Assembly: GCA_029906985.1 (NCBI GenBank)
Contig: JARYMT010000002.1
Span: forward strand, 1 to 64,000
Reading direction: 5' to 3'
Source: Microgenomates group bacterium
GTDB lineage: Bacteria; Patescibacteriota; Microgenomatia; UBA1406; GWC2-37-13
Length of the DNA: 64,000 nucleotides
Shown: positions 1,037-63,707 of the stretch, one piece after another
How the letters are laid out: each line of letters starts with the position of its first letter
Numbering within the stretch: the stretch's first letter is position 1
Notes under the pieces: generated by a model
Databases searched by the model: none
Told to the model about the DNA's origin: nothing
Seen by the model: only the letters and a program-made list of their open reading frames with translations
Program-made: the position numbers and the translations under genes

Positions 1037-1651
1037 TTAATAACTTTTCATTTTTATTCGGGTTTTATAATCCATATAAATAGAGGGATCGTACTGGTAA
1101 CTAATTTTAAAATTTAAATTAATAATTGGCGGAGAATAATCTGCCGACCGAAAGCATTCAATATTAAAATTATCAATTTTTACGTTTGAACTAGTAAGAT
1201 CAATAGGATTGGTAAGCCTGGCGGAGTTTGAAGCAATTGTTGATGGCGATTTTGATGATTGATAAAATTGAAAATAATCATTATTTTTATCAGAAAAATA
1301 AAAATCCTTGCCTTTTTGGGTAGATAAAAATCTTTCATTAGAACTGAAACATTTTTTATCGCCACACTCTTGATCCCCGCAGATAAAGACTGCATTATTT
1401 TTTATTATGGTTTCCATCGTCACTAAGGCATTGTCACCCTGTCTTTTTATTTCCTGAAGAACATAAATTCTTTTTTGCTGTTGAATGATTGAAAAAATTA
1501 TTCCGAATATGGCCGGCAAAATTAAACCAATAATGGCAATAACAATTATCATTTCAATTAAAGAAAAACCAATTTGGCGCCATTTATCAATATGGTTTTT
1601 ATTGGTTTTTTGATTATTCCCAAATAGTAAAATACGAGGTGATTGGTACAT
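1037..1651 (-). CDS. Prepilin-like protein with long leader (minor pseudopilin)
   Basis: Type IV prepilin-like protein of 204 residues. The class III signal is seen as G-FSLIEM (Gly -1, Phe +1, Glu +5), followed by a hydrophobic helix of about 20 residues. The leader before the cleavage site is 28 residues, unusually long. No other ATG, GTG or TTG lies closer in frame, so ATG 1651 is used although it falls inside the end of the upstream prepilin gene (38 nt overlap). The globular part has five cysteines, three of them clustered in the segment CGDQECGDKKC. It probably acts as a minor pilin. It could only be placed more exactly by structure comparison. Confidence 0.8.
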   Translation of the reverse strand: MYQSPRILLFGNNQKTNKNHIDKWRQIGFSLIEMIIVIAIIGLILPAIFGIIFSIIQQQKRIYVLQEIKRQGDNALVTMETIIKNNAVFICGDQECGDKKCFSSNERFLSTQKGKDFYFSDKNNDYFQFYQSSKSPSTIASNSARLTNPIDLTSSNVKIDNFNIECFRSADYSPPIINLNFKISYQYDPSIYMDYKTRIKMKSY

Positions 1652-2075
1652 ATTGTTTAACTCCTAACTCATTCCAAGAAGTTTCGACAGTCACTTTTAC
1701 TTTAGTGGTTGGGTTATTGTCTTCTTTTTTAAATTGGGCACATCTTGTATAAATTCCTCCAATCGCTGAAGCAGAACAAACCTCATCGCAAAGACCACTT
1801 CCTGTCAGTGAACTTCTTTCTTCGATTACATTAAAACATCTTTTTTGATCATTGATAATGCTTTCGGTAAAAATTTGCCAATCTTCTTCTTTCCGGCTCC
1901 GCAGCCAGTCTAAAAGTTCTTCAGCATAATGGCTGGCTATAATTCGGTGCTCGTTGGCTTTCATTGCCCGCAGGGAGGCGGTAACAACGGCCGCCGCCGT
2001 CACAAAAAAAACCGCCAAAATCGAAACAAAAATTAAAACCTCAATCAGACTAAAACCTGTTTTTTTTATTTTCAT
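1614..2075 (-). CDS. Prepilin-like protein, PilV/GspI type
   Basis: Prepilin of 153 residues. It has a six-residue basic leader MKIKKT, then G-FSLIEVLIF with Glu +5, and an Ala/Val-rich transmembrane helix. The segment after the helix, with HYAEELLDWLRSRKEEDW, resembles the AEELLEWLR stretch common in PilV-type minor pilins. Cysteines cluster in the C-terminal half (CFNV, GLCDEVC, RCAQF). The prepilin peptidase that would cut it is not in this window. It is co-directional with five other prepilins and is likely part of one minor-pilin set. Confidence 0.82.
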   Translation of the reverse strand: MKIKKTGFSLIEVLIFVSILAVFFVTAAAVVTASLRAMKANEHRIIASHYAEELLDWLRSRKEEDWQIFTESIINDQKRCFNVIEERSSLTGSGLCDEVCSASAIGGIYTRCAQFKKEDNNPTTKVKVTVETSWNELGVKQYVPITSYFTIWE

Positions 2076-2087
2076 ATAATTTTTTAA

Positions 2088-2597
2088 TTACCAATTAAAA
2101 GTTTCTTCGATTGTCCCGGCTATATTTATTAAGATATTTATTGAGTGATTTAATTCATTCATCAATACAATCGGATTGCCGCCGGAAATTGTTATCCCAC
2201 TGGATAAAGGTCGAAACAATATTGTAGAAGGATCGCTCTTAAGTTTAATGCCGAAAAGAAAACTATAATCTGATAGTTTATCATCACAGGAAGCACAGCA
2301 ACGGTAGAGACGATACCCATTATTATCAACAATTACCTGATAGCCCTTATAAATTTTATTGTTTATATCACAGGCAACCGAAGCAGTGGCCGAAGAAGCC
2401 TCCTTTTTTGCCAACTCCAAAACACTAATCAATTTTTTGGCTTCGTCTTTTAACTTTTGGTCAAGGATGAAATTATTATAATTGGCTAGTCCAATGCCGG
2501 CAAAAATGATAATAACCAAAACGGTTATTAAAATTTCGATTAAGCTAAAACCAATATTTTTTTTATTTTTATTTCTCATGGTTTGTTTAAAATTCAA
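2088..2597 (-). CDS. Prepilin-like protein, FimT/GspH type
   Basis: Prepilin of 169 residues. The cleavage motif is G-FSLIEILITV and the following helix ends in ANYNNFILDQKLKDEAKKL. This layout, then a segment rich in small residues with LELAKKEA, resembles GspH/FimT minor pilins. The first ATG (2597) gives a 15-residue leader; a second ATG at codon 7 (2579) gives a shorter, more usual one, and the sequence does not decide. It contains the cysteine cluster RCCASC. It lies between two other prepilin genes on the same strand. Confidence 0.8.
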   Translation of the reverse strand: MNFKQTMRNKNKKNIGFSLIEILITVLVIIIFAGIGLANYNNFILDQKLKDEAKKLISVLELAKKEASSATASVACDINNKIYKGYQVIVDNNGYRLYRCCASCDDKLSDYSFLFGIKLKSDPSTILFRPLSSGITISGGNPIVLMNELNHSINILINIAGTIEETFNW

Positions 2598-2640
2598 ATA
2601 AATTTAAACAAGCATTGCAAAATTATGTGGCGATTTTTAA

Positions 2641-3066
2641 TTATGGCGTTGGTATTGCCATTTCGGTTGCCCCATAAGGATTAGCTTTATAATAATTATT
2701 GTTTTCCAAAGAAGCATATATTGTGTAACTCGTGCAATAAGTGGTAGTATTGTCACACCCGGGAGGCTCTGGGGAATAAGTCGGATAAGGCAATTTGGTT
2801 TTTGGATCCGAGGGGATATCCATAATATAATCTGGCTTCAAAATCGTTAATGAAACTGGATAATATCCAACGGATTGATTACTTCGATACATTTCCAACG
2901 CCGCCTGGATATTTTCCACATCTGCCTTTCTTTTAGCATCACGACTTTGTTTCATAAATTGGGAATAGGAAATTGAGGCGGCGGTCGTCAACATCCCAAT
3001 GATTGTAACTACCACTAAAATTTCAATAAAAGTAAAACTTTTTTCTATTTCTTTTTTTTGGATCAT
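2641..3066 (-). CDS. Prepilin-like protein, Ser at -1
   Basis: Prepilin-like protein of 141 residues. The signal is S-FTFIEILVVV: Glu +5 is kept, but the residue before the expected cut is Ser instead of Gly or Ala. Whether the peptidase still cuts here is open. The helix is followed by QSRDAKRKADVENIQAALEM, a block shared nearly word for word with the next two prepilins, so the three are paralogs. Cysteines lie in CDNTTTYC near the C-terminus. It is co-directional with its neighbours, with 20 nt to the gene upstream. Confidence 0.8.
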   Translation of the reverse strand: MIQKKEIEKSFTFIEILVVVTIIGMLTTAASISYSQFMKQSRDAKRKADVENIQAALEMYRSNQSVGYYPVSLTILKPDYIMDIPSDPKTKLPYPTYSPEPPGCDNTTTYCTSYTIYASLENNNYYKANPYGATEMAIPTP

Positions 3067-3086
3067 ATTTTTATTTTTATAAAAAA

Positions 3087-3497
3087 TTATTGTTGGTTGC
3101 TTAGACAGTAACTAGTAACATTACTTTCCGATTCTAGGACCGGCGGAGTTTCTGCTCTTGTGGGAACACATATTGTATAGGTCGACCCAATCCCTGTCAT
3201 TGTATAAGATTGGCCGGTTTTTGGATCAACAGGTACCGACGGCATTATCGCTGTTGAAGGATTCAGGCACACAATTGTCGGCACACGATTTGGATTTATC
3301 GCCGGATATGGATAACTATAGCCACATACAGAATAGTATTCTTCAAGGGCGTTTTGAATCGATTTTAAATCGCTTTTTCTTTTGGCATCACGGGCCTTTT
3401 TTTGAGCTGTAGAATAAGAGGTGGTTCCCAAAGCCAGAATAATGGAAATTATTCCAATAACCACTAAAATTTCCAAAAGGGTAAATGCTTTTTTCAT
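3087..3497 (-). CDS. Prepilin-like protein (major-pilin-like)
   Basis: Prepilin of 136 residues with a short leader MKKA and motif A-FTLLEILVVIG (Ala -1, Glu +5). The post-helix block AQKKARDAKRKSDLKSIQNA matches its paralogs at 2641, 3521 and 13502. This is the usual compact layout of major pilins and of GspG-like pseudopilins. The C-terminal domain has four cysteines and a PVDPKTG segment resembling the pseudopilin loop P-x-DPxxG. Which paralog forms the main fibre cannot be told from sequence. Confidence 0.82.
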   Translation of the reverse strand: MKKAFTLLEILVVIGIISIILALGTTSYSTAQKKARDAKRKSDLKSIQNALEEYYSVCGYSYPYPAINPNRVPTIVCLNPSTAIMPSVPVDPKTGQSYTMTGIGSTYTICVPTRAETPPVLESESNVTSYCLSNQQ

Positions 3498-3520
3498 AAT
3501 TTTAAAAAAAATTATAATTT

Positions 3521-3967
3521 TTATGGTTCAGTTACTCGGTAACAACCGCGCGGCGATGAACAATTCATCCCGCTCCCACACAAACTGCAATCAACCTTAT
3601 CGGTATCAGCTATGTTCTCTAAGCACGCGCATAAATTATATTTGGCCAAATCTGTAGAATCACGGTGATAATAGTAAGGAGTTGGACCTAAGGGATCGCA
3701 GGGTATTTTATTTAAATAAACCGGATTGGTGCCAAAAGTCGACCCGCAACTGCCAAGTTGATTAGAATTCGGAGTTGGGTATACCGGCAGCGGCTGGTCT
3801 TGTTTATACATTTCCAAAGATTTTTGTATCTGTTTTAAATCGTTTTTTCTTTGAATATCGCGAGCCCTTTCTCTTGCTGCCATCAAATTGGGAAGAAGAA
3901 ATGCTGAAAGCATGCCAATGATCGCTATCACTACTAAAAGCTCTATTAAAGTGAAGGCTTTTTTCAT
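3521..3967 (-). CDS. Cysteine-rich prepilin-like protein, first gene of the pilus cluster
   Basis: Prepilin of 148 residues with leader MKKA and motif [12 protein letters not shown]. The helix is followed by [20 protein letters not shown], as in its paralogs. The C-terminal half holds eight cysteines, including CAC, CSLC and NC...GC spacings, far more than the usual single disulfide of a pilin. This suggests a disulfide-stabilised surface domain. It is the first gene of the minus-strand cluster; its ATG follows a -10 element by 9 nt, so the mRNA is probably leaderless or nearly so. Confidence 0.84.
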
Positions 3968-22805: not shown

Positions 22806-23641
22806 GAGTAATATTATAATTTATAAAATTTATAAAATCCATTTAATTATTGTTTATTATTATTTGCCGATAAATTCTCTTTCAGATTGTTGTTAGAGGC
22901 CTGCCAAGAAAAGTTTTCTGTTACCCCTGCTTTTCGACTTCACTTAAAGAATAATGACAACGGTAAAAGACTTTGTGTCATCGTTCGAGGAACAATGGAA
23001 AATTAGGTCATTAAACCGATCAAAAACTAATAACTGTTTAAGGTTCACCGAAACCCTGCTTCTCGCCTTGGTTCAAACTAAGCTTCTTGACTCGATCGCT
23101 CCGCTCCCTTGCTTGAAGAATAAATATAGTGTTATTGTTCAAGCAAGCGAAGCGCGTCAAGAACTATTTTTGGTTGCCGTTCGGGTCTGCGGTAAACTAT
23201 CCTTAGTTATTGTTAAAGCAAGCGATAAGCATTGACAATCTTTAAACCCATCGAAAACCAATCACTACTTCTTAACTTCGTATGAAGAGTAAATATTGTA
23301 TTATCGTTTGAGCCTTCCGAAAATTTTTTTAGAATGCTTAAAGCCGTTGTCAGACAAGAAGGTCTAGCCACCAAAAGGACAACCCTTTAACCACTACAAT
23401 TAATTAATTAATTGTAGTGGAAAAATTGTTGTTGCTTGGGTTTGCCGAGAATTACCCTTAATTCTTCTTGTTGTTTTTGGTTGTTGGTCGAATAAGCGAG
23501 GAATATTGATAATCTTTGGGGGCATCGGAAACCATCCCCGATTATCGTTCGAGCTTGTCGAGAAAAAGCTATCGTTTAAAACATCATTGTTTCATTTTTT
23601 TAATTGATAATTTTTAAAAAATATCATCTTAAAATTACTTG
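22806..23641 (+). other. Non-coding region with degenerate repeats
   Basis: About 840 nt without a credible gene; one open frame (22954-23235) has no family motif. Diverged copies of a unit with the core (G/A)TTATYGTTYRAGC, often followed by CGA a few bases on, recur near 22978, 23131, 23206, 23300 and 23541. The spacings are close to multiples of 75-80 nt. An inverted repeat CTTGAC...TTGCTTGAA / TTCAAGCAAG...GTCAAG lies at about 23086-23160. A perfect 30-bp palindrome lies at 23391-23420. Unknown RNA or decayed mobile repeats are both possible. Confidence 0.45.
23391..23420. repeat. 30-bp perfect palindrome, copy A
   Basis: Arm CCACTACAATTAATT followed by its exact reverse complement, preceded by CCTTTAA. 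An identical palindrome with the same TTTAA flank lies at 39207-39236. No T run follows on either strand, so it does not look like a simple terminator. It lies about 250 nt before tRNA-Ile. Confidence 0.85.
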
Positions 23642-33771: not shown

Positions 33772-34341
33772 ATGAAGTTGAAATACGAAAACATCACTAT
33801 TTCAGGCGGAGTGGCGGTTGGGAAAAATGCTCTTCTTAATAACCTCAAACCTTATTTGCTGCCTTTGGGCTGGCACTTTACCTCAGGCGGACAGATATTG
33901 CGTGATTTTACCAAAGAAAATATTCTCCCTTTGGCCAGTTTGGTTGATAAGGAATTTCACTACCGCCTTGATAACCGGACTTTGGCGCTTCTAAAAAAGG
34001 GCAAATATGTCATTGAAGCTTGGCTGGCTGGTTTTGTCGCCCGCCGGCTTAAAAACACCCTAAGAGTCCTTTTGATCTGCACTAATGAGGCAGTGCGGGT
34101 CGACCGGGTCGCCAACCGGGACAATATATCGATTGAACAAGCTAAGGAATTTATTAAAAAAAGGGAAGAAATCAATTTTAAAGAATGGCAACGGATTTAT
34201 GGAAATTATAATTTTTTTGATCCGAAATATTATCATTTAGTCATCGATACCTATTCCTCCGGCCAGCTGGAAACTTTGGGCAAAGTCCTTGACAAGCTTG
34301 GTTATGATCATAAAAACATCTCCGTCCAACCCCGGCCATAA
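33772..34341 (+). CDS. Cytidylate-kinase-like P-loop protein
   Basis: Protein of 189 residues. The P-loop is GGVAVGKNALL, with Asn in place of the Ser/Thr after Lys. The later VDRVANRDNISIEQAKEFIKKREE resembles the LID and arginine region of archaeal-type cytidylate kinases (AAA_18/Cytidylate_kin2). Function is probably nucleotide or small-molecule phosphorylation, not proven. The C-terminal residues QPRP and the stop come from a repeat element (34331-34406) that is also found at the end of hisS. It overlaps nothing else and is 2 nt after the protease gene. Confidence 0.6.
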   Translation: MKLKYENITISGGVAVGKNALLNNLKPYLLPLGWHFTSGGQILRDFTKENILPLASLVDKEFHYRLDNRTLALLKKGKYVIEAWLAGFVARRLKNTLRVLLICTNEAVRVDRVANRDNISIEQAKEFIKKREEINFKEWQRIYGNYNFFDPKYYHLVIDTYSSGQLETLGKVLDKLGYDHKNISVQPRP

Positions 34342-34406
34342 AGTTCGACCCCCGCGGTCGAACTTGGGCCAGCCCGACGCTCCACCCATCTCAAATTAGC
34401 CTCGAC
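34331..34406 (+). repeat. GC-rich palindromic intergenic repeat, copy 1
   Basis: GGCCATAAA, then a perfect 10-bp hairpin AAGTTCGACC-CCCGC-GGTCGAACTT (34341-34365), then GGGCCAGCCCGAC, TCCACCCATCTC and AAATTAGCCTCGAC. It begins inside the upstream coding sequence and provides its stop codon. It lies in the 231-nt spacer before proS. The rest of that spacer is AT-rich, with TATAAT at 34555-34560 placed 12 nt before proS. Confidence 0.85.
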
Positions 34407-34572: not shown

Positions 34573-35823
34573 ATGCTATATTCCAAGCTTTTTGGCAAAA
34601 CAAAAAAAACCGTCAATCAACAGTTTGAATCAAAAAATCATGAGCTTTTGACTAAAGGCGGTTTTATTGATCAAGTCAGCAGCGGCATTTACTCACTTTT
34701 ACCTCTTGGCAAAAAAGTTCTTTCTCATATTGAAAATGTCATTCGCCAAGAAATGGAGGCCATCGGCGGTCAAGAAATTTCCATGCCTCTTTTACAGCCA
34801 AAAATTAATTGGCAAAAAACAAATCGCTGGTCGACGGTAGATATTTTATTTAAAACCAAAAGTCAATACGGTCAGGAATATGTAATCGCGCCAACTCACG
34901 AAGAAATTGTCACCCCGCTGGCCAAAAAATACATCGAAAGTTATCGCGATCTACCCCTATATCTTTATCATATTACGCCAAAATTCCGCGATGAACCCCG
35001 GCCAAAATCAGGTATTTTGAGAGGCAAGGAATTTGGCATGAAAGATCTTTATTCTTTTCACGCCGACAAAAAAGATTTTGAAATTTTTTATCAAAAAGTA
35101 ATTGAGGCTTATTTGAAAATTTTCAATCGGGTGGGGTTAAAAGAAATCAAAATCACCGAGGCCTCCGGTGGTAGCTTTTCTAAAAAATTGTCTCATGAAT
35201 TTAATGTCATTACTCCTGCCGGCGAAGTTGATCTTTTTTATTGTTCATTTTGTTCTTTTGCCCAAAATCAAGAAATCGCCACTCTAAAGGAAGGTGAATT
35301 ATGTCCCCGCTGTCGAAAGGGGAGAATGATTAAGGGTAAAGCCATTGAAGTCGGTAATATTTTTGATTTAAATACCCGATTTAGCGATAGTTTTGATTTG
35401 TTTTGTGTCGACAACCAAGGCGAAAAAAAACCTGTCTATATGGGCTGTTACGGAATCGGCACCACTCGACTTTTGGGAGCAATCGTTGAGGTCTATCATG
35501 ATGACAAAGGGATCATCTGGCCAGAAAATATTGCTCCTTATCAAGTCCATCTTTTAGGCCTCGATCAACAAGATAAAATCGTTAATCAAAATTGCCAAAA
35601 AGTTTATCAACAATTGATAAAAAAGAAGATCGCTGTCCTTTTTGATGATCGCCAAGAAATATCTGCCGGCCAAAAATTTTCCGATGCCGATTTAATTGGC
35701 ATTCCCCATCGTCTCGTCGTCTCCAAAAGGACCGGCGAAAAAATAGAATACAAAAGAAGAGATCAAAAAGAATCCAAGCTCTTAACTTTGGAAGAAATAA
35801 TCAAGCTCTGCCATCAAGGTTGA
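34573..35823 (+). CDS. proS: Prolyl-tRNA synthetase without editing insertion
   Basis: Class II synthetase charging tRNA-Pro, 416 residues against 570 or so for standard bacterial ProRS. Motif 1 region LLPLGKKVLSHIENVIRQEM, motif 2 KFRDEPRPKSGILRGKEFGM and motif 3 GCYGIGTTRLLGAIVE are all present. The 180-residue INS editing domain between motifs 2 and 3 is missing; instead a short segment has CSFC and CPRC, likely a zinc knuckle. An anticodon-binding domain closes the protein. The last residues CHQG and the TGA come from repeat copy 2. tRNA-Pro(CGG) is encoded at 39.0 kb. Confidence 0.93.
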   Translation: MLYSKLFGKTKKTVNQQFESKNHELLTKGGFIDQVSSGIYSLLPLGKKVLSHIENVIRQEMEAIGGQEISMPLLQPKINWQKTNRWSTVDILFKTKSQYGQEYVIAPTHEEIVTPLAKKYIESYRDLPLYLYHITPKFRDEPRPKSGILRGKEFGMKDLYSFHADKKDFEIFYQKVIEAYLKIFNRVGLKEIKITEASGGSFSKKLSHEFNVITPAGEVDLFYCSFCSFAQNQEIATLKEGELCPRCRKGRMIKGKAIEVGNIFDLNTRFSDSFDLFCVDNQGEKKPVYMGCYGIGTTRLLGAIVEVYHDDKGIIWPENIAPYQVHLLGLDQQDKIVNQNCQKVYQQLIKKKIAVLFDDRQEISAGQKFSDADLIGIPHRLVVSKRTGEKIEYKRRDQKESKLLTLEEIIKLCHQG

Positions 35824-35880
35824 CCCCCGCGGTCGAAAAAAGGCCGTCCTGACAACTAATATATCTCAAATTAGCCTCAA
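35810..35880 (+). repeat. GC-rich palindromic intergenic repeat, copy 2
   Basis: GCCATCAAGG, hairpin TTGACC-CCCGC-GGTCGA (one G-U pair), then AGGCCGTCCTGAC, ATCTCAAATTAGCCTCAA and a T-rich end. The last two blocks match copy 1 nearly base for base. It overlaps the proS 3' end and stop and lies between convergent proS and cysS. Confidence 0.82.
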
Positions 35881-37333: not shown

Positions 37334-37362
37334 AAAAAACACACCTACGAGGTGTGTTTTTT
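37334..37362 (-). terminator. Intrinsic terminator, bidirectional shape
   Basis: Arm AAAAAACACACCT, loop ACG, arm AGGTGTGTTTTTT: a 13-bp stem whose outer A/T pairs form a U run on either strand. It follows the stop of the minus-strand gene at 37377 by 14 nt and precedes the cysS promoter, so it ends the membrane protein transcript. Confidence 0.88.
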
Positions 37363-39128: not shown

Positions 39129-39206
39129 TGAACCAGAACGCCAAGGAATGTTTTTTTGGCAACAACCAACAAAAAGTGTCCAACTATTAAAAGGGCATTC
39201 CTTTAA

Positions 39207-39236
39207 CCACTACAATTAATTAATTAATTGTAGTGG
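39207..39236. repeat. 30-bp perfect palindrome, copy B
   Basis: Identical to 23391-23420 (arm CCACTACAATTAATT), again preceded by CCTTTAA and followed by G and A residues. It lies between the 3' end of the glycosyltransferase gene at 39286 and the tRNA-Pro promoter. Confidence 0.85.
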
Positions 39237-39285
39237 GAAAAAGTTACTGCGACGATGGGGAAAAAAGATTAACCGGTTCAAAATT

Positions 39286-45484: not shown

Positions 45485-45586
45485 AAAGTTAACCGATTAA
45501 TTATTGATCGGTGATTGGCAAAAATTTTAAAAAAAATTATCATTCTCCTTTGTTTTTTCCCAGTTTATCAAGTAAAATTTACTCAT

Positions 45587-46915
45587 ATGGATAAAAAAAA
45601 CCAGGTGAAAATTCTTAAAGGCTTTCGGGATTTTTTTGCTGCCGATGTGGCTTTGCGTAATTATGTCATCAATATCTTTAGACAAGTTTTTGAAAAATAT
45701 GGTTATGAGCCTTTGGAGACACCAGCTTTGGAGTATAGCGATATTTTTCTAAAACAATCTGGTGAAGAGGCGACGAAACTTTTTTACCGGTTTAAAGATG
45801 AAGGCGGCCGCGACATCATGCTTAAATATGAAGTAATGATATCTATGTGCCGGGCGGTAGCAGAAAATCTTGATAAAATTGTTTTTCCTTACAAACGCTA
45901 TCAGATTCAGACGGTCTGGCGGGCGGAAAAACCGCAAAAAGGTCGCTTCCGAGAATTTACCCAATGCGATGCTGATACCCTTGGCGCCTCTTCGGTTCTG
46001 GCCGATGCCGAATTTATTCAGATGGGGCAAGAGATATTGGAAAAACTTGGTTTTAAAAAATTTCGCGCCAATATCAGCAACCGAAAATTTTTGGCCGGCC
46101 TTATTGAATTTGCCGGCGGCAGTTCGTCTCAATTTATTCCCATTTGTCTTTCGATCGATAAATTACCTAAAATCGGAGCATTAGCTGTTAAAAAAGAGCT
46201 TCTGGAGAAAAGAAAAATCAGCAGTTCGGTCGCCGAAAAAATCCTTGAACTTATTAATTATCAGGGAACAACAAGTCAATTAATTGCCAAATACCGACAA
46301 ATTTTAAAAAATTTTCCTTTGGCTTTGACTGGTTTGTCAGAATTGGAAAAAATTTTTCAGTATCTTGAAATCGCTGGTGTTGACCAAGGCCGCTATTGCT
46401 TTGCCCCTTATCTAGCTCGAGGTTTAGCTTATTATACCGGACCAATATGGGAATTTGAAATTATTGATGGCGGGGTTGGCTCTGTCGCTGGCTGCGGCCG
46501 TTATGACAATGTCATTGGCCAATTTACTGGCCGCCAGATTCCCGCCACCGGCGGTTCCTTTGGTTTAGAAAGAATCATTGAGATTATGAAAGAAAGAAAA
46601 ATGGTTAATTTACCCTTGACGACAACCAAAGTTCTAATTACCAATTTCGCCGATGACACTCTTGATACCCTAATCAAAATTGCCAAAGCTCTTCGCCAAG
46701 AAGATATTACCACTTTGCTTTATCCGCAAACCAGCCGACTTGATAAACAGCTTAAATACGCCGATAAAAAAAATATTCCCTATGTTATTATCGTTGGACC
46801 GGAAGAAGTAAAAAAACAAAAGATAATCTTCAAAGACATGAAAAAAGCCAGTCAGGAAACAACAACCATTGACGCGGTCATCAAAAGACTAAAACCGGCC
46901 ACCCCCCGGCCATAA
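45587..46915 (+). CDS. hisS: Histidyl-tRNA synthetase
   Basis: Class II synthetase for His, 442 residues from ATG 45587. This start follows TAAAAT by 8 nt and begins MDKKNQVKILKGFRDFFAAD, the normal family N-terminus; a frame extension back to 45515 would add a 24-residue hydrophobic stretch and lies before that -10. Motif 2 VWRAEKPQKGRFREFTQCD, LARGLAYYTGPIWEFE (His-specific) and a C-terminal anticodon domain are present. The last residues TPRP and the stop come from repeat copy 3, matching QPRP at the end of the 33772 gene. Confidence 0.94.
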   Translation: MDKKNQVKILKGFRDFFAADVALRNYVINIFRQVFEKYGYEPLETPALEYSDIFLKQSGEEATKLFYRFKDEGGRDIMLKYEVMISMCRAVAENLDKIVFPYKRYQIQTVWRAEKPQKGRFREFTQCDADTLGASSVLADAEFIQMGQEILEKLGFKKFRANISNRKFLAGLIEFAGGSSSQFIPICLSIDKLPKIGALAVKKELLEKRKISSSVAEKILELINYQGTTSQLIAKYRQILKNFPLALTGLSELEKIFQYLEIAGVDQGRYCFAPYLARGLAYYTGPIWEFEIIDGGVGSVAGCGRYDNVIGQFTGRQIPATGGSFGLERIIEIMKERKMVNLPLTTTKVLITNFADDTLDTLIKIAKALRQEDITTLLYPQTSRLDKQLKYADKKNIPYVIIVGPEEVKKQKIIFKDMKKASQETTTIDAVIKRLKPATPRP

Positions 46916-46946
46916 AATTCGACCCCCGCGGTCGAACTTATTTTTT
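46904..46946 (+). terminator. GC-rich palindromic repeat, copy 3, acting as intrinsic terminator
   Basis: CCGGCCATAAA, hairpin TTCGACC-CCCGC-GGTCGAA (46918-46936), then CTTATTTTTTATTTTT. The 7-bp GC-rich stem followed by a T run is a good intrinsic terminator for hisS. The first 30 nt are almost identical to copy 1 at 34331, including the preceding stop codon. Confidence 0.8.
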
Positions 46947-60207: not shown

Positions 60208-62733
60208 ATGACGACAAATGAAAGCAAACAAACTGAAATTACCGCCGAAATGAAGCGGGCTTATCTTGACTACGCTATGTCGGTGATTGTCTCCCGGGCG
60301 CTGCCCGATGTTCGTGACGGTTTAAAACCGGTTCATCGGCGGATATTATACGCGATGTATAAAATGGGTTTGGGTGCCTCCGGCCATTATTCCAAATCGG
60401 CCAAAATTGTCGGTGAAGTCTTGGGTAAATATCATCCTCACGGCGACGCACCGGTTTATGAAGCGTTGGCCCGCTTGGCCCAAAATTTTTCCATGCGCTA
60501 TCCTTTGGTTAAAGGTCAAGGTAATTTTGGTTCGATTGACGGCGACCCACCGGCGGCCATGCGTTATACCGAAGCAAAACTGACTAAATTAGCTGAAGAA
60601 TTACTTCAGGATATTGATAAAGAGACTGTTCCTTGGCTTAATAATTTTGATGCTACTTTAAAAGAACCGGCTTACTTACCGGCCAAACTGCCTAATCTTT
60701 TGCTCATGGGTGCCGAGGGAATTGCCGTTGGTATGGCCACTAAAATCCCCCCCCATAATCTTTCCGAAGTAGTTGACGCTCTTTGTGCCACCATTGACAA
60801 AGCCAAGTTAATTAATGATCAAAAAAGTCAGGCCACTGAAGATAAAAAAAAGCCGGTCAATCAAGATCCTAATCCCAACAATCTTATTTTCAATATCGAA
60901 ATTGATGAATTACTCCAATTTATCAAGGGGCCGGATTTTCCCACCGCCGGTATTATTTATGGCTTTAATGATATTAAACAGGCCTATGCGACAGGCAAAG
61001 GAAAAATTTTAATTAGAGGAAAAATTGATGATGAAGAATTAAAAAATGGTCGGCGGGCAATTATTGTTAAAGAAATTCCTTATCAGGTCAATAAATCGGT
61101 TTTGGTCGAAAAAATTGCCAAGCTGGCTAATGACAAAAAAATTGTCGGCATTGCCGACTTGAGGGATGAGTCCGACCGAGAAGGTATCCGGATTGTCATT
61201 GAGCTTAAAAGAGATGCCTCCTATAAAAAAGTTTTAAATAATCTTTTTAAATATACTGAATTACAGACCTCTTTCCCGATTAATATGGTGGCTTTGGTCG
61301 ATGGCGTTCCCCAAACTCTTTCTTTAAAATCCGTCCTTGAACTTTATCTTAAACACCGGGTAATGATTATTACCAAAAGATCAAAGTTTGAATTAGCCCA
61401 AGCCAAACACCGGGCCCATATTCTTGAGGGCTACCTAATCGCTTTAGATCACATTGATGAAGTTGTCGACATCATCAAAAAATCAAAAGACGAGGCCGAG
61501 GCAAAAGTAAAATTAATTAAAAAATTTTTCCTCTCGGAAATTCAGGCGCAAGCGATTCTTGATATGCAATTAAAAAGATTGACTGGTCTTGAAAAAAACA
61601 AAATCAAAGAAGAATTAGCTGAATTAAAAAAGACAATCAGTTATCTGGAAAATCTTCTTAAAGATATTTTCAAAATTCTCAAAGTGATTAAAGACGAATT
61701 GCTTCTTTTAAAACAAAAATATGGAGACGAAAGAAAAACCCAGGTTATCAAATCAAAACCGGGAGAAATTACCGATGAACAACTTATTGAAAATAAAGAA
61801 GTGATTGTAGTTTTGACCCGGGAAGGCTATATCAAGCAGGTTCCCCGGGAGACTTTCCGCGTCCAAAATCGGGGCGGCAAAGGGGTAACCGGCATCGAGA
61901 CCAAAGAATCCGACAATGTTTATTACATTACCACGGCGATGACCCATGATTATATGCTTTTTTTCACCAATCTTGGCCGGGTATTTCAAAACCGCGTCTG
62001 GGACATTCCTCAAGGATCGCGAACTGCCAAAGGCAAAGCGATTGTCAATCTTTTGTCGTTGCGGCCGGAAGAAAAAGTCACTTCGATTTTGACTTACGGC
62101 AATCATTTGGAGGAAGAATTAGCCAAATCTTTTGTTATTATGTTTACCAAAAAAGGGACAGTGAAAAAGACACCTTTTTCCGACTACGCCAATATCCGAA
62201 GCAACGGCATCATTGCTATTAGATTAGAAAAAGATGATGAATTACTTTGGGTAAAAATGACCGACGGCCAAAAAAACGCCATCATCGCCACCAAACAAGG
62301 AAAAGCGATTGTTTTTAAAGAAAAAGAAATTAGGCCAACCGGCCGTTCTTCAAAAGGGGTCAAAGGGATCGAATTAGCGGCCGGCGATCAGGTGGTGGCC
62401 GCCGATGTCTTTTCCGATAAAGAATTCAAAAAGAATATTCTGGTTATCGGCGAGCGGGGGATCGGCAAAAAGACCATTCTATCTCTTTTCCGGGGTCAGC
62501 ATCGAGGCGGCAAAGGCGTTAAAGTCGCCACCATTGATAAAAAATTTGGCCAAATTGCTTTTGCTCAGCTAATCAACGAAGGCGATACCACTGCCATTAT
62601 CACCAGCGCCCACGGTCAGATTGTCAAAATTCCTCTGGCGGCAATTCCCTCCCGTTCAAGATCGGCCAAAGGCGTCATTCTTATGCGTTTTTCCGACCCG
62701 GCCGATAAAGTTGTCAGCGCCACATTCATTTAA
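60208..62733 (+). CDS. gyrA: DNA gyrase subunit A
   Basis: Cleavage subunit of gyrase, 841 residues. [20 protein letters not shown] at the start, the quinolone-region segment [18 protein letters not shown], and catalytic Tyr120 in [10 protein letters not shown] (E. coli Tyr122). A coiled-coil tower and a six-bladed C-terminal domain follow; [15 protein letters not shown] is the GyrA box (QRRGGKG in E. coli), which marks gyrase over topo IV. An extra 30-residue Lys/Pro/Asn-rich loop lies near residue 205 ([20 protein letters not shown]). Confidence 0.95.
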
Positions 62734-62770
62734 ATTTTCTCTTTTTTCTGGTATAATATCGTATTCATTT

Positions 62771-63643
62771 ATGAAAATTCCTGGTCAACAAATTGCCAGG
62801 TTTCTGGAAAGAATCGAAAAAAAAGAGATCCGGAAACTTAACAAAGAAAAGAGAAAAAAATTGACCTTAGCGGTTGTCTTGGTCGGCAATTCTCCCGAGC
62901 AGCTTTCATTTGTCAAAATTAAAAAAAAATTGGCCAAAAAATTGGCAATCAAATTCGACTTAATCCACCTCAAAAGAACTCCTTCTTTTGAAAAATTTAT
63001 GCATCTTGTCAAAGAAAAGGCGGTCGATGCCAAAACCGGCGGGATAATCATCCAACAACCGCTGCCAAGCCAGTTGCAAACCGATTGTCTTTACGATTTT
63101 TTGCCCCTCGATAAAGAAATCGAGGGCCATCACCGAAAAACTAGTTTTTTACCGCCGATTGGCCTTGCCACAATCACTTTATTAAAATATGTTTTCGCCA
63201 ATGGAAAAATCGACAGCCATTTGTTAGTTGATCCTAAAGCCGATCGGACCCTGATGAAAAGAGCTTTAAGAAACAAAAAAGTTGTCCTTTTGGGCCGGGG
63301 CTTTACCGGCGGCCGACCGGTTGGCAAAACCCTTTCATATTTTGGCATTAATTTTATCAATGTCAATTCGGCTACCCCCAATCCCACCGAATATCTCAAA
63401 CAAGCCGATATTATCATTTCCGCTGTAGGTAAGAAAGTAATTTCGCCGGAGATGCTAAAACCAGGAGTGGTTTTAATTAATGTCGGCTTAAGAAGAGAAG
63501 GCAACCAGTTAAAAGGCGATTATGAAGAAAAAGAAATTCAAAAAATCGCCAGTTATTATACGCCGACTCCCGGCGGCATCGGCCCTTTAGATAGCTTATA
63601 TCTTTACCACAACCTAATCCAGGCAGTAAAACTGCAAAAATAA
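62771..63643 (+). CDS. folD: FolD-like methylenetetrahydrofolate dehydrogenase/cyclohydrolase, divergent
   Basis: C1-folate enzyme of 290 residues. The family order is seen: LTLAVVLVGNSPEQLSFVKIKKKLA, GGIIIQQPLPSQL, VVLLGRGFTGGRPVGKTLSY (NADP site) and YYTPTPGGIGPLDSLYLYHN. Three normally strict positions differ: the catalytic-site Tyr of YVxxK is Phe47 (Lys51 kept), KDVDG is KEIEG, and the linking segment has EGHHRKTS. Activity may be partial or altered. ATG 62771 is 13 nt after TGG-TATAAT; the same frame is open back into gyrA but that part has no family match. Confidence 0.85.
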   Translation: MKIPGQQIARFLERIEKKEIRKLNKEKRKKLTLAVVLVGNSPEQLSFVKIKKKLAKKLAIKFDLIHLKRTPSFEKFMHLVKEKAVDAKTGGIIIQQPLPSQLQTDCLYDFLPLDKEIEGHHRKTSFLPPIGLATITLLKYVFANGKIDSHLLVDPKADRTLMKRALRNKKVVLLGRGFTGGRPVGKTLSYFGINFINVNSATPNPTEYLKQADIIISAVGKKVISPEMLKPGVVLINVGLRREGNQLKGDYEEKEIQKIASYYTPTPGGIGPLDSLYLYHNLIQAVKLQK

Positions 63644-63650
63644 ATTCATT

Positions 63651-63707
63651 GGCCATCAACTTCGACCCCCGCGGTCAAACCTGGCCCGGCCCGACAATCC
63701 ACCCATA
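63651..63707 (+). repeat. GC-rich palindromic intergenic repeat, copy 4
   Basis: GGCCATCAAC, hairpin TTCGACC-CCCGC-GGTCAAA (one mismatched pair), then CTGGCCCGGCCCGAC and TCCACCCAT as in copy 1. It begins 8 nt after the folD stop. The rest of the spacer up to 63836 is AT-rich, with TATAAT at 63804-63809 as a possible -10 for miaA. Confidence 0.82.

Follow-up and report, generated by a model that had tools for sequence, protein, structure and literature searches.

Four genes in the window, by which we mean the whole stretch of DNA analysed here (64,000 nt; bases 1-64000 of contig 9 in a Microgenomates genome of 953 kb, 16 contigs, 33% G+C and 98% completeness), carry a GC-rich palindrome at their 3' ends. 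A preliminary description offered two ideas for this repeat, a REP-like element spread by a RAYT-type transposase and a lineage-specific terminator, and the question raised by the locus is which of them, if either, accounts for its sequence, its distribution and its neighbours. We consider it likely that the palindromes are orphan, diverging REP family members of a RAYT (TnpA-REP) Y1/HUH transposase lineage in the Microgenomatia.

The palindrome at the ends of genes

Reading of the sites confirms the four copies that had been placed at about 34341, 35820, 46918 and 63661, with 15-nt cores starting at 34346, 35821, 46920 and 63663; all four lie on the forward strand, as do the genes before them. 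Copy 1 (34334..34386) consists of a left arm GGCCATAAAGTT, the core CGACC-CCCGC-GGTCG, and a right arm and tail GGGCCAGCCCGACGCTCC; it holds the stop codon of a cytidylate-kinase-like gene (33772..34341), whose last residues (PRP*) are encoded by the element. Copy 2 (35809..35861) has the stop TGA of the prolyl-tRNA synthetase (ProRS) gene (34573..35823) within its stem (GGT-TGA-CC). Copy 3 (46908..46941) has lost its tail, is followed by a T-rich stretch and holds the stop codon of the histidyl-tRNA synthetase (HisRS) gene (45515..46915), the stop being read, as in copy 1, from GGCCA-TAA. Copy 4 (63651..63703) begins just past the stop codon, directly after a FolD-like (methylene-THF dehydrogenase/cyclohydrolase) gene (62621..63643), and is 86% identical to copy 1 over 56 nt. 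The cytidylate-kinase-like, ProRS and HisRS genes thus take their stop codon and final residues from the element. Of the flanks reported for the hairpin, GGCCAT(A/C)AA, GGCC-GCCCGAC and TCCACCCAT are real, and TCTCAAATTAGCCTC is common to copies 1 and 2 only. The C-terminus of HisRS (...KPATPRP*) is unlike the native ends of its orthologues; since those of other genera have different C-termini and are without the element at that 3' end, it was most likely added here in the window's genome, as judged from the compared sequences. Two more distant HisRS genes (genus g7) are also followed by the element.

The repeat extends well beyond these four places. With up to three mismatches, the core has six matches in the window against 0.19 expected, a number equalled by no shuffle, two of the places being counted on both strands. 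Of its 13-nt core, GACCCCCGCGGTC, the window has four copies and the whole genome 13 exact ones, or 17 with at most one mismatch allowed; the reversed control pattern has no match anywhere in the genome. An iterated profile search of the whole genome returned 23 non-overlapping places, most with E <1e-5 and one marginal (C10:4269, E 0.1), for an element of about 55-77 nt whose copies have diverged. Whereas the preliminary description had allowed for there being no further copies, nine more exact and about ten diverged ones lie elsewhere in the genome. The element is a short, dispersed, imperfect palindrome, as expected of a REP (20-60 nt), with about 23 copies here and up to 27 in relatives, which is low for a REP. 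The consensus in this genome reads GCCATaAAGGTTGACC-N5-GGTC(A/G)AACttnGGCCnGCCCGACanTCTaAA. Because the copies differ considerably among themselves, these GACC copies appear to be an old population. With the tail taken as reference, about half of these copies have CCCGC as their loop and the rest GCGGG, which looks as though the tip of the hairpin had turned over.

A strong preference for gene ends was found among 24 candidates whose context was taken from a simple ORF caller, the doubtful place C9:70977 being included solely in this count. Nineteen of them lie no more than 60 nt from the 3' end of an ORF, whereas intergenic points drawn at random do so in 24% of cases (binomial P ~2e-8). The neighbouring ORFs are convergent for eight candidates, tandem for 12 and divergent for three. 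Copies equally often inside genes, the other outcome that the preliminary description had envisaged, were not seen: a single candidate is intragenic and 23 of 24 are extragenic. In YchF of this genome the element is in frame, with a net gain of seven residues at that point relative to all 29 family orthologues compared.

Relatives of the element and their transposase genes

A covariance-model search, which the preliminary description had proposed for the genome, led into the same GTDB family, where a first model, built from 22 own copies, found diverged relatives. With a second model, of 77 nt, the element was recovered from 41 of the 72 family genomes, which represent 19 of 34 genera; a genome has up to 27 matches, a count that exceeds the number of copies because some places are matched on both strands. 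Among the searched genomes of the class outside the family, only four had matches, one or two weak ones each; a scan of a genome collection with a strict pattern gave one contig (Roizmanbacteria MFZI01000040.1), and one exact-pattern scan of viral contigs gave none. Neither another species of the genus nor a recent pair of occupied and empty sites was found for comparison, a point that stands against the REP reading. The label 'lineage-specific' therefore fits GACCCCCGCGGTC in its exact form, which is absent from 56 relatives, but does not fit this general type of element. In the cross-genome model alignment the ACC and GGT of a core ACC-N5-GGT are invariant, and the neighbouring stem pairs covary with none of 500 shuffles as good, a control that is a partial guard, the models being partly built from the same sequences and ancestry being shared.

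Copies in relatives are likewise mainly extragenic, with 21 of 88 inside ORFs, some few of which are short or have uncertain starts. The intragenic ones include copies in an M1 aminopeptidase and AroB, both named by inspection, and in five MtaB-like genes recognised by their Pfam domains. The copy in the MtaB-like gene falls within a variable linker and brings no net length gain, a point that we count against the reading as an inserted REP; given the unchanged length, the element may there have replaced linker sequence. In-frame insertions of REPs have already been recorded (PMC6006769), and those described here are not new in kind. Position is little conserved: the element is shared with the window's genome in five of 52 orthologue comparisons, which concern two genes only.

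The most informative neighbours are transposase genes. The preliminary description had called for a search for a REP-associated transposase, and when a Pfam Y1_Tnp search over the 72 family genomes was set against the element places, ten RAYT genes had the element within 400 nt (in G001, G003, G006, G007, G016, G031, G036, G058, G072 and G075), where a rough estimate of chance gives about one. In five of these genomes (G001, G003, G007, G016 and G075) model matches lie on both sides of the gene, mostly inverted, against 0.003 expected; in G006, G031 and G058 a hairpin of like kind was seen by eye on the other side, and the hairpins on either side of the G075 gene are almost identical. A RAYT gene bordered by copies of its repeat is the REPtron arrangement (PMC6006769), which is thus present in the relatives. 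Their RAYTs carry the Y1_Tnp domain and an HYH or HFH motif, and no conserved GTRG, the GT[AG]G tag of the hairpin foot, occurs in 13 RAYT-flanking copies. As a separate observation, the RAYT upstream regions L237, L190, L257, L185, L240 and L261 share a sequence resembling TTTTGTAGnnTATAATCCATTGAC, which may be a promoter or operator common to them.

The genome of the window has a single Y1 transposase (C9:177869-178510, 213 aa), which matches Y1_Tnp, has the HYH motif and scores slightly below the cut-off of NCBIfam REP_Tyr_transpos (71.7 vs 80 bits). In a comparison with eight other RAYTs its identity is 52-60% for seven of them and 34% for that of G031. Its gene is flanked by another palindrome, ACACACCTCGTAGGTGTGT, with 13 exact copies in the genome and a tip that also reads ACC-N5-GGT; a copy of this kind (ACACACCTACGAGGTGTGT) lies in the window at 37339..37357 on the forward strand. 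No GACC copy stands beside this RAYT gene, so that no REPtron of the GACC palindrome was found in the genome, and we count this, too, against the preferred reading. A second RAYT or a RAYT pseudogene was sought by tblastn with eight relatives, which returned only the one gene. The REP/RAYT idea is therefore supported at the level of the family, in ten genomes of which the element abuts RAYT genes, but not literally in the window's own genome.

Weighing the readings

We propose that the copies arose through a RAYT that would have recognised the hairpin as folded single-stranded DNA and inserted it at other sites, and that the insertions would have survived mainly where they were least harmful, just past stop codons or in protein loops; the bias towards 3' ends would then reflect tolerance. 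Since the single RAYT of this genome is flanked by a different palindrome, the copies in the window are probably REPs in decay that an earlier RAYT left as orphans. The cognate enzyme may have been lost, may lie in an assembly gap, or may be the existing RAYT after a switch to the ACACACC-type palindrome; under each of these alternatives the GACC copies would now be fossils. Any putative present effect, such as a hairpin at the RNA 3' end that slows exonucleases, would be incidental. It can further be hypothesised, tentatively and with the odds against it, that the RAYT lineage repeatedly changes its REP, reading the invariant ACC-N5-GGT tip while the stem pairs turn over (GACC, AACC, CACC), and that this genome keeps two successive generations, the fossil GACC copies and the young, identical CACC copies with the RAYT.

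It is improbable, in our judgement, that the hairpin is an intrinsic or bidirectional terminator, lineage-specific, or a 3'-end processing hairpin, copied for its usefulness. Such a role would suit the strong 3'-end bias and the several copies between convergent genes, and the T-run attributed to copy 3 is indeed there; copy 3 is alone among the four in having one after the hairpin, and only a minority of all copies have one, so that the stable hairpin with an immediately adjoining U-tract that marks an intrinsic terminator is not the rule. Copy 1 folds clearly better than its shuffles (z -3.6), but the three other window copies hardly do so (z -1.0, -1.5 and -0.1). The copies also have the tail past the hairpin in common, for which a terminator has no need, and some stand in frame inside conserved coding genes or border transposase genes on either side. 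The claim of a lineage-specific terminator is thus left unsupported. A conserved RNA was rejected as well, the copies having no Rfam match and no stem covariation within the genome above shuffles, the latter being expected for one repeat family and also uninformative.

There is little likelihood, again, that the repeat is a MITE of another transposon, with TTTAG...CTAAA ends. In relatives the element does reach an imperfect palindrome of about 70 nt with TTTAG and CTAAA near its ends, yet its centre is the most conserved part and the outer arms are less so, and the gene that accompanies it encodes a RAYT of the Y1 type rather than a DDE transposase. That the palindrome is a DNA-binding site kept for its function, with a protein of the nucleoid, of segregation or of repair as its ligand, seems highly improbable: the dyad TTGACC-N5-GGTCAA and a loop that faces either way with respect to the tail would agree with it, but pairing is kept while the sequence varies between genomes, and the 3'-end bias and the flanking of RAYT genes would go unexplained. 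Two further candidates were rejected. Half-sites alone are not over-represented among enriched 10-mers, as an uptake sequence (DUS-like) would have them; and an integron attC does not fit, given the usual anatomy of such sites and the context, in which the copies follow housekeeping genes (such as ProRS and HisRS) and not a cassette array. The reading as REPs of a RAYT lineage is the one we retain, with the low copy number relative to classical REPs and the absence of their GT[AG]G tag standing against it.

Comparison with known repeats and other repeats of the genome

Coding genes that carry a palindrome in frame, as here, are also familiar from the Rickettsia palindromic elements, which are not known to have a RAYT association. 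The closest counterparts are the REPs and REPtrons of RAYT/TnpA-REP (PMC2817692, PMC3116915, PMC6006769), which are likewise short, dispersed and mostly extragenic palindromes; as in those systems, copies in the relatives border a single Y1 RAYT gene, mostly inverted, and the stem co-varies between genomes. Unlike them, the present element has no GT[AG]G tag, has a core ACC-N5-GGT and reaches about 1-27 copies per genome instead of hundreds, and in the window's genome palindrome and RAYT no longer match. A location mainly downstream of ORFs, between convergent or tandem genes and in some cases within genes, is shared with the GTAG- and CGTC-tagged REPs (PMC3733652), but neither tag is conserved here, CGTC being found in only some own copies; the same work describes RAYTs with long flanking inverted repeats unrelated to the GTAG repeats. 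The atypical REPs of TnpA-Y1 subclass 2.6 and class 3 resemble our element in being RAYT-flanking structures without GT[AG]G that have further genomic copies; subclass 2.6 is reported mostly from Bacteroidetes, and class 3 from Planctomycetes, Acidobacteria and Proteobacteria (PMC6006769). The HYH motif described for subclass 2.8 is that of the Microgenomatia proteins, but the REPs of this subclass carry GT[AG]G (PMC6006769).

In the literature, our coverage of which is incomplete, no description of REP/RAYT systems in Patescibacteria was found, and the present results make such systems a regular part of some of these ultra-small, streamlined genomes. The turnover of the stem from genome to genome, the invariant tip, the putative fossil and living generations and the in-frame copies could form a convenient natural series for the co-evolution of RAYT and REP. 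They also serve as a warning that 3'-end hairpins of this sort should not be read as terminators or conserved RNAs.

Other repeats were observed in passing. An AT-rich palindrome (CACTACAATTA...TAATTGTAGTG) forms a third family and lies near tRNA genes at 23386-23425 and 39202-39241 of the window; of its roughly 19 places in the genome, only three have the 3' end of an ORF within 60 nt. On contig C8 of G000, dense short-period repeats (GGTTGATCCTGTTGGTC and variants) at 192-1819 and 61.7-64.4 kb possibly encode a collagen-like protein. At 1529-3963 of the window, similar sequence recurs at the starts of successive small minus-strand ORFs, an arrangement resembling a pilin-like gene cluster.
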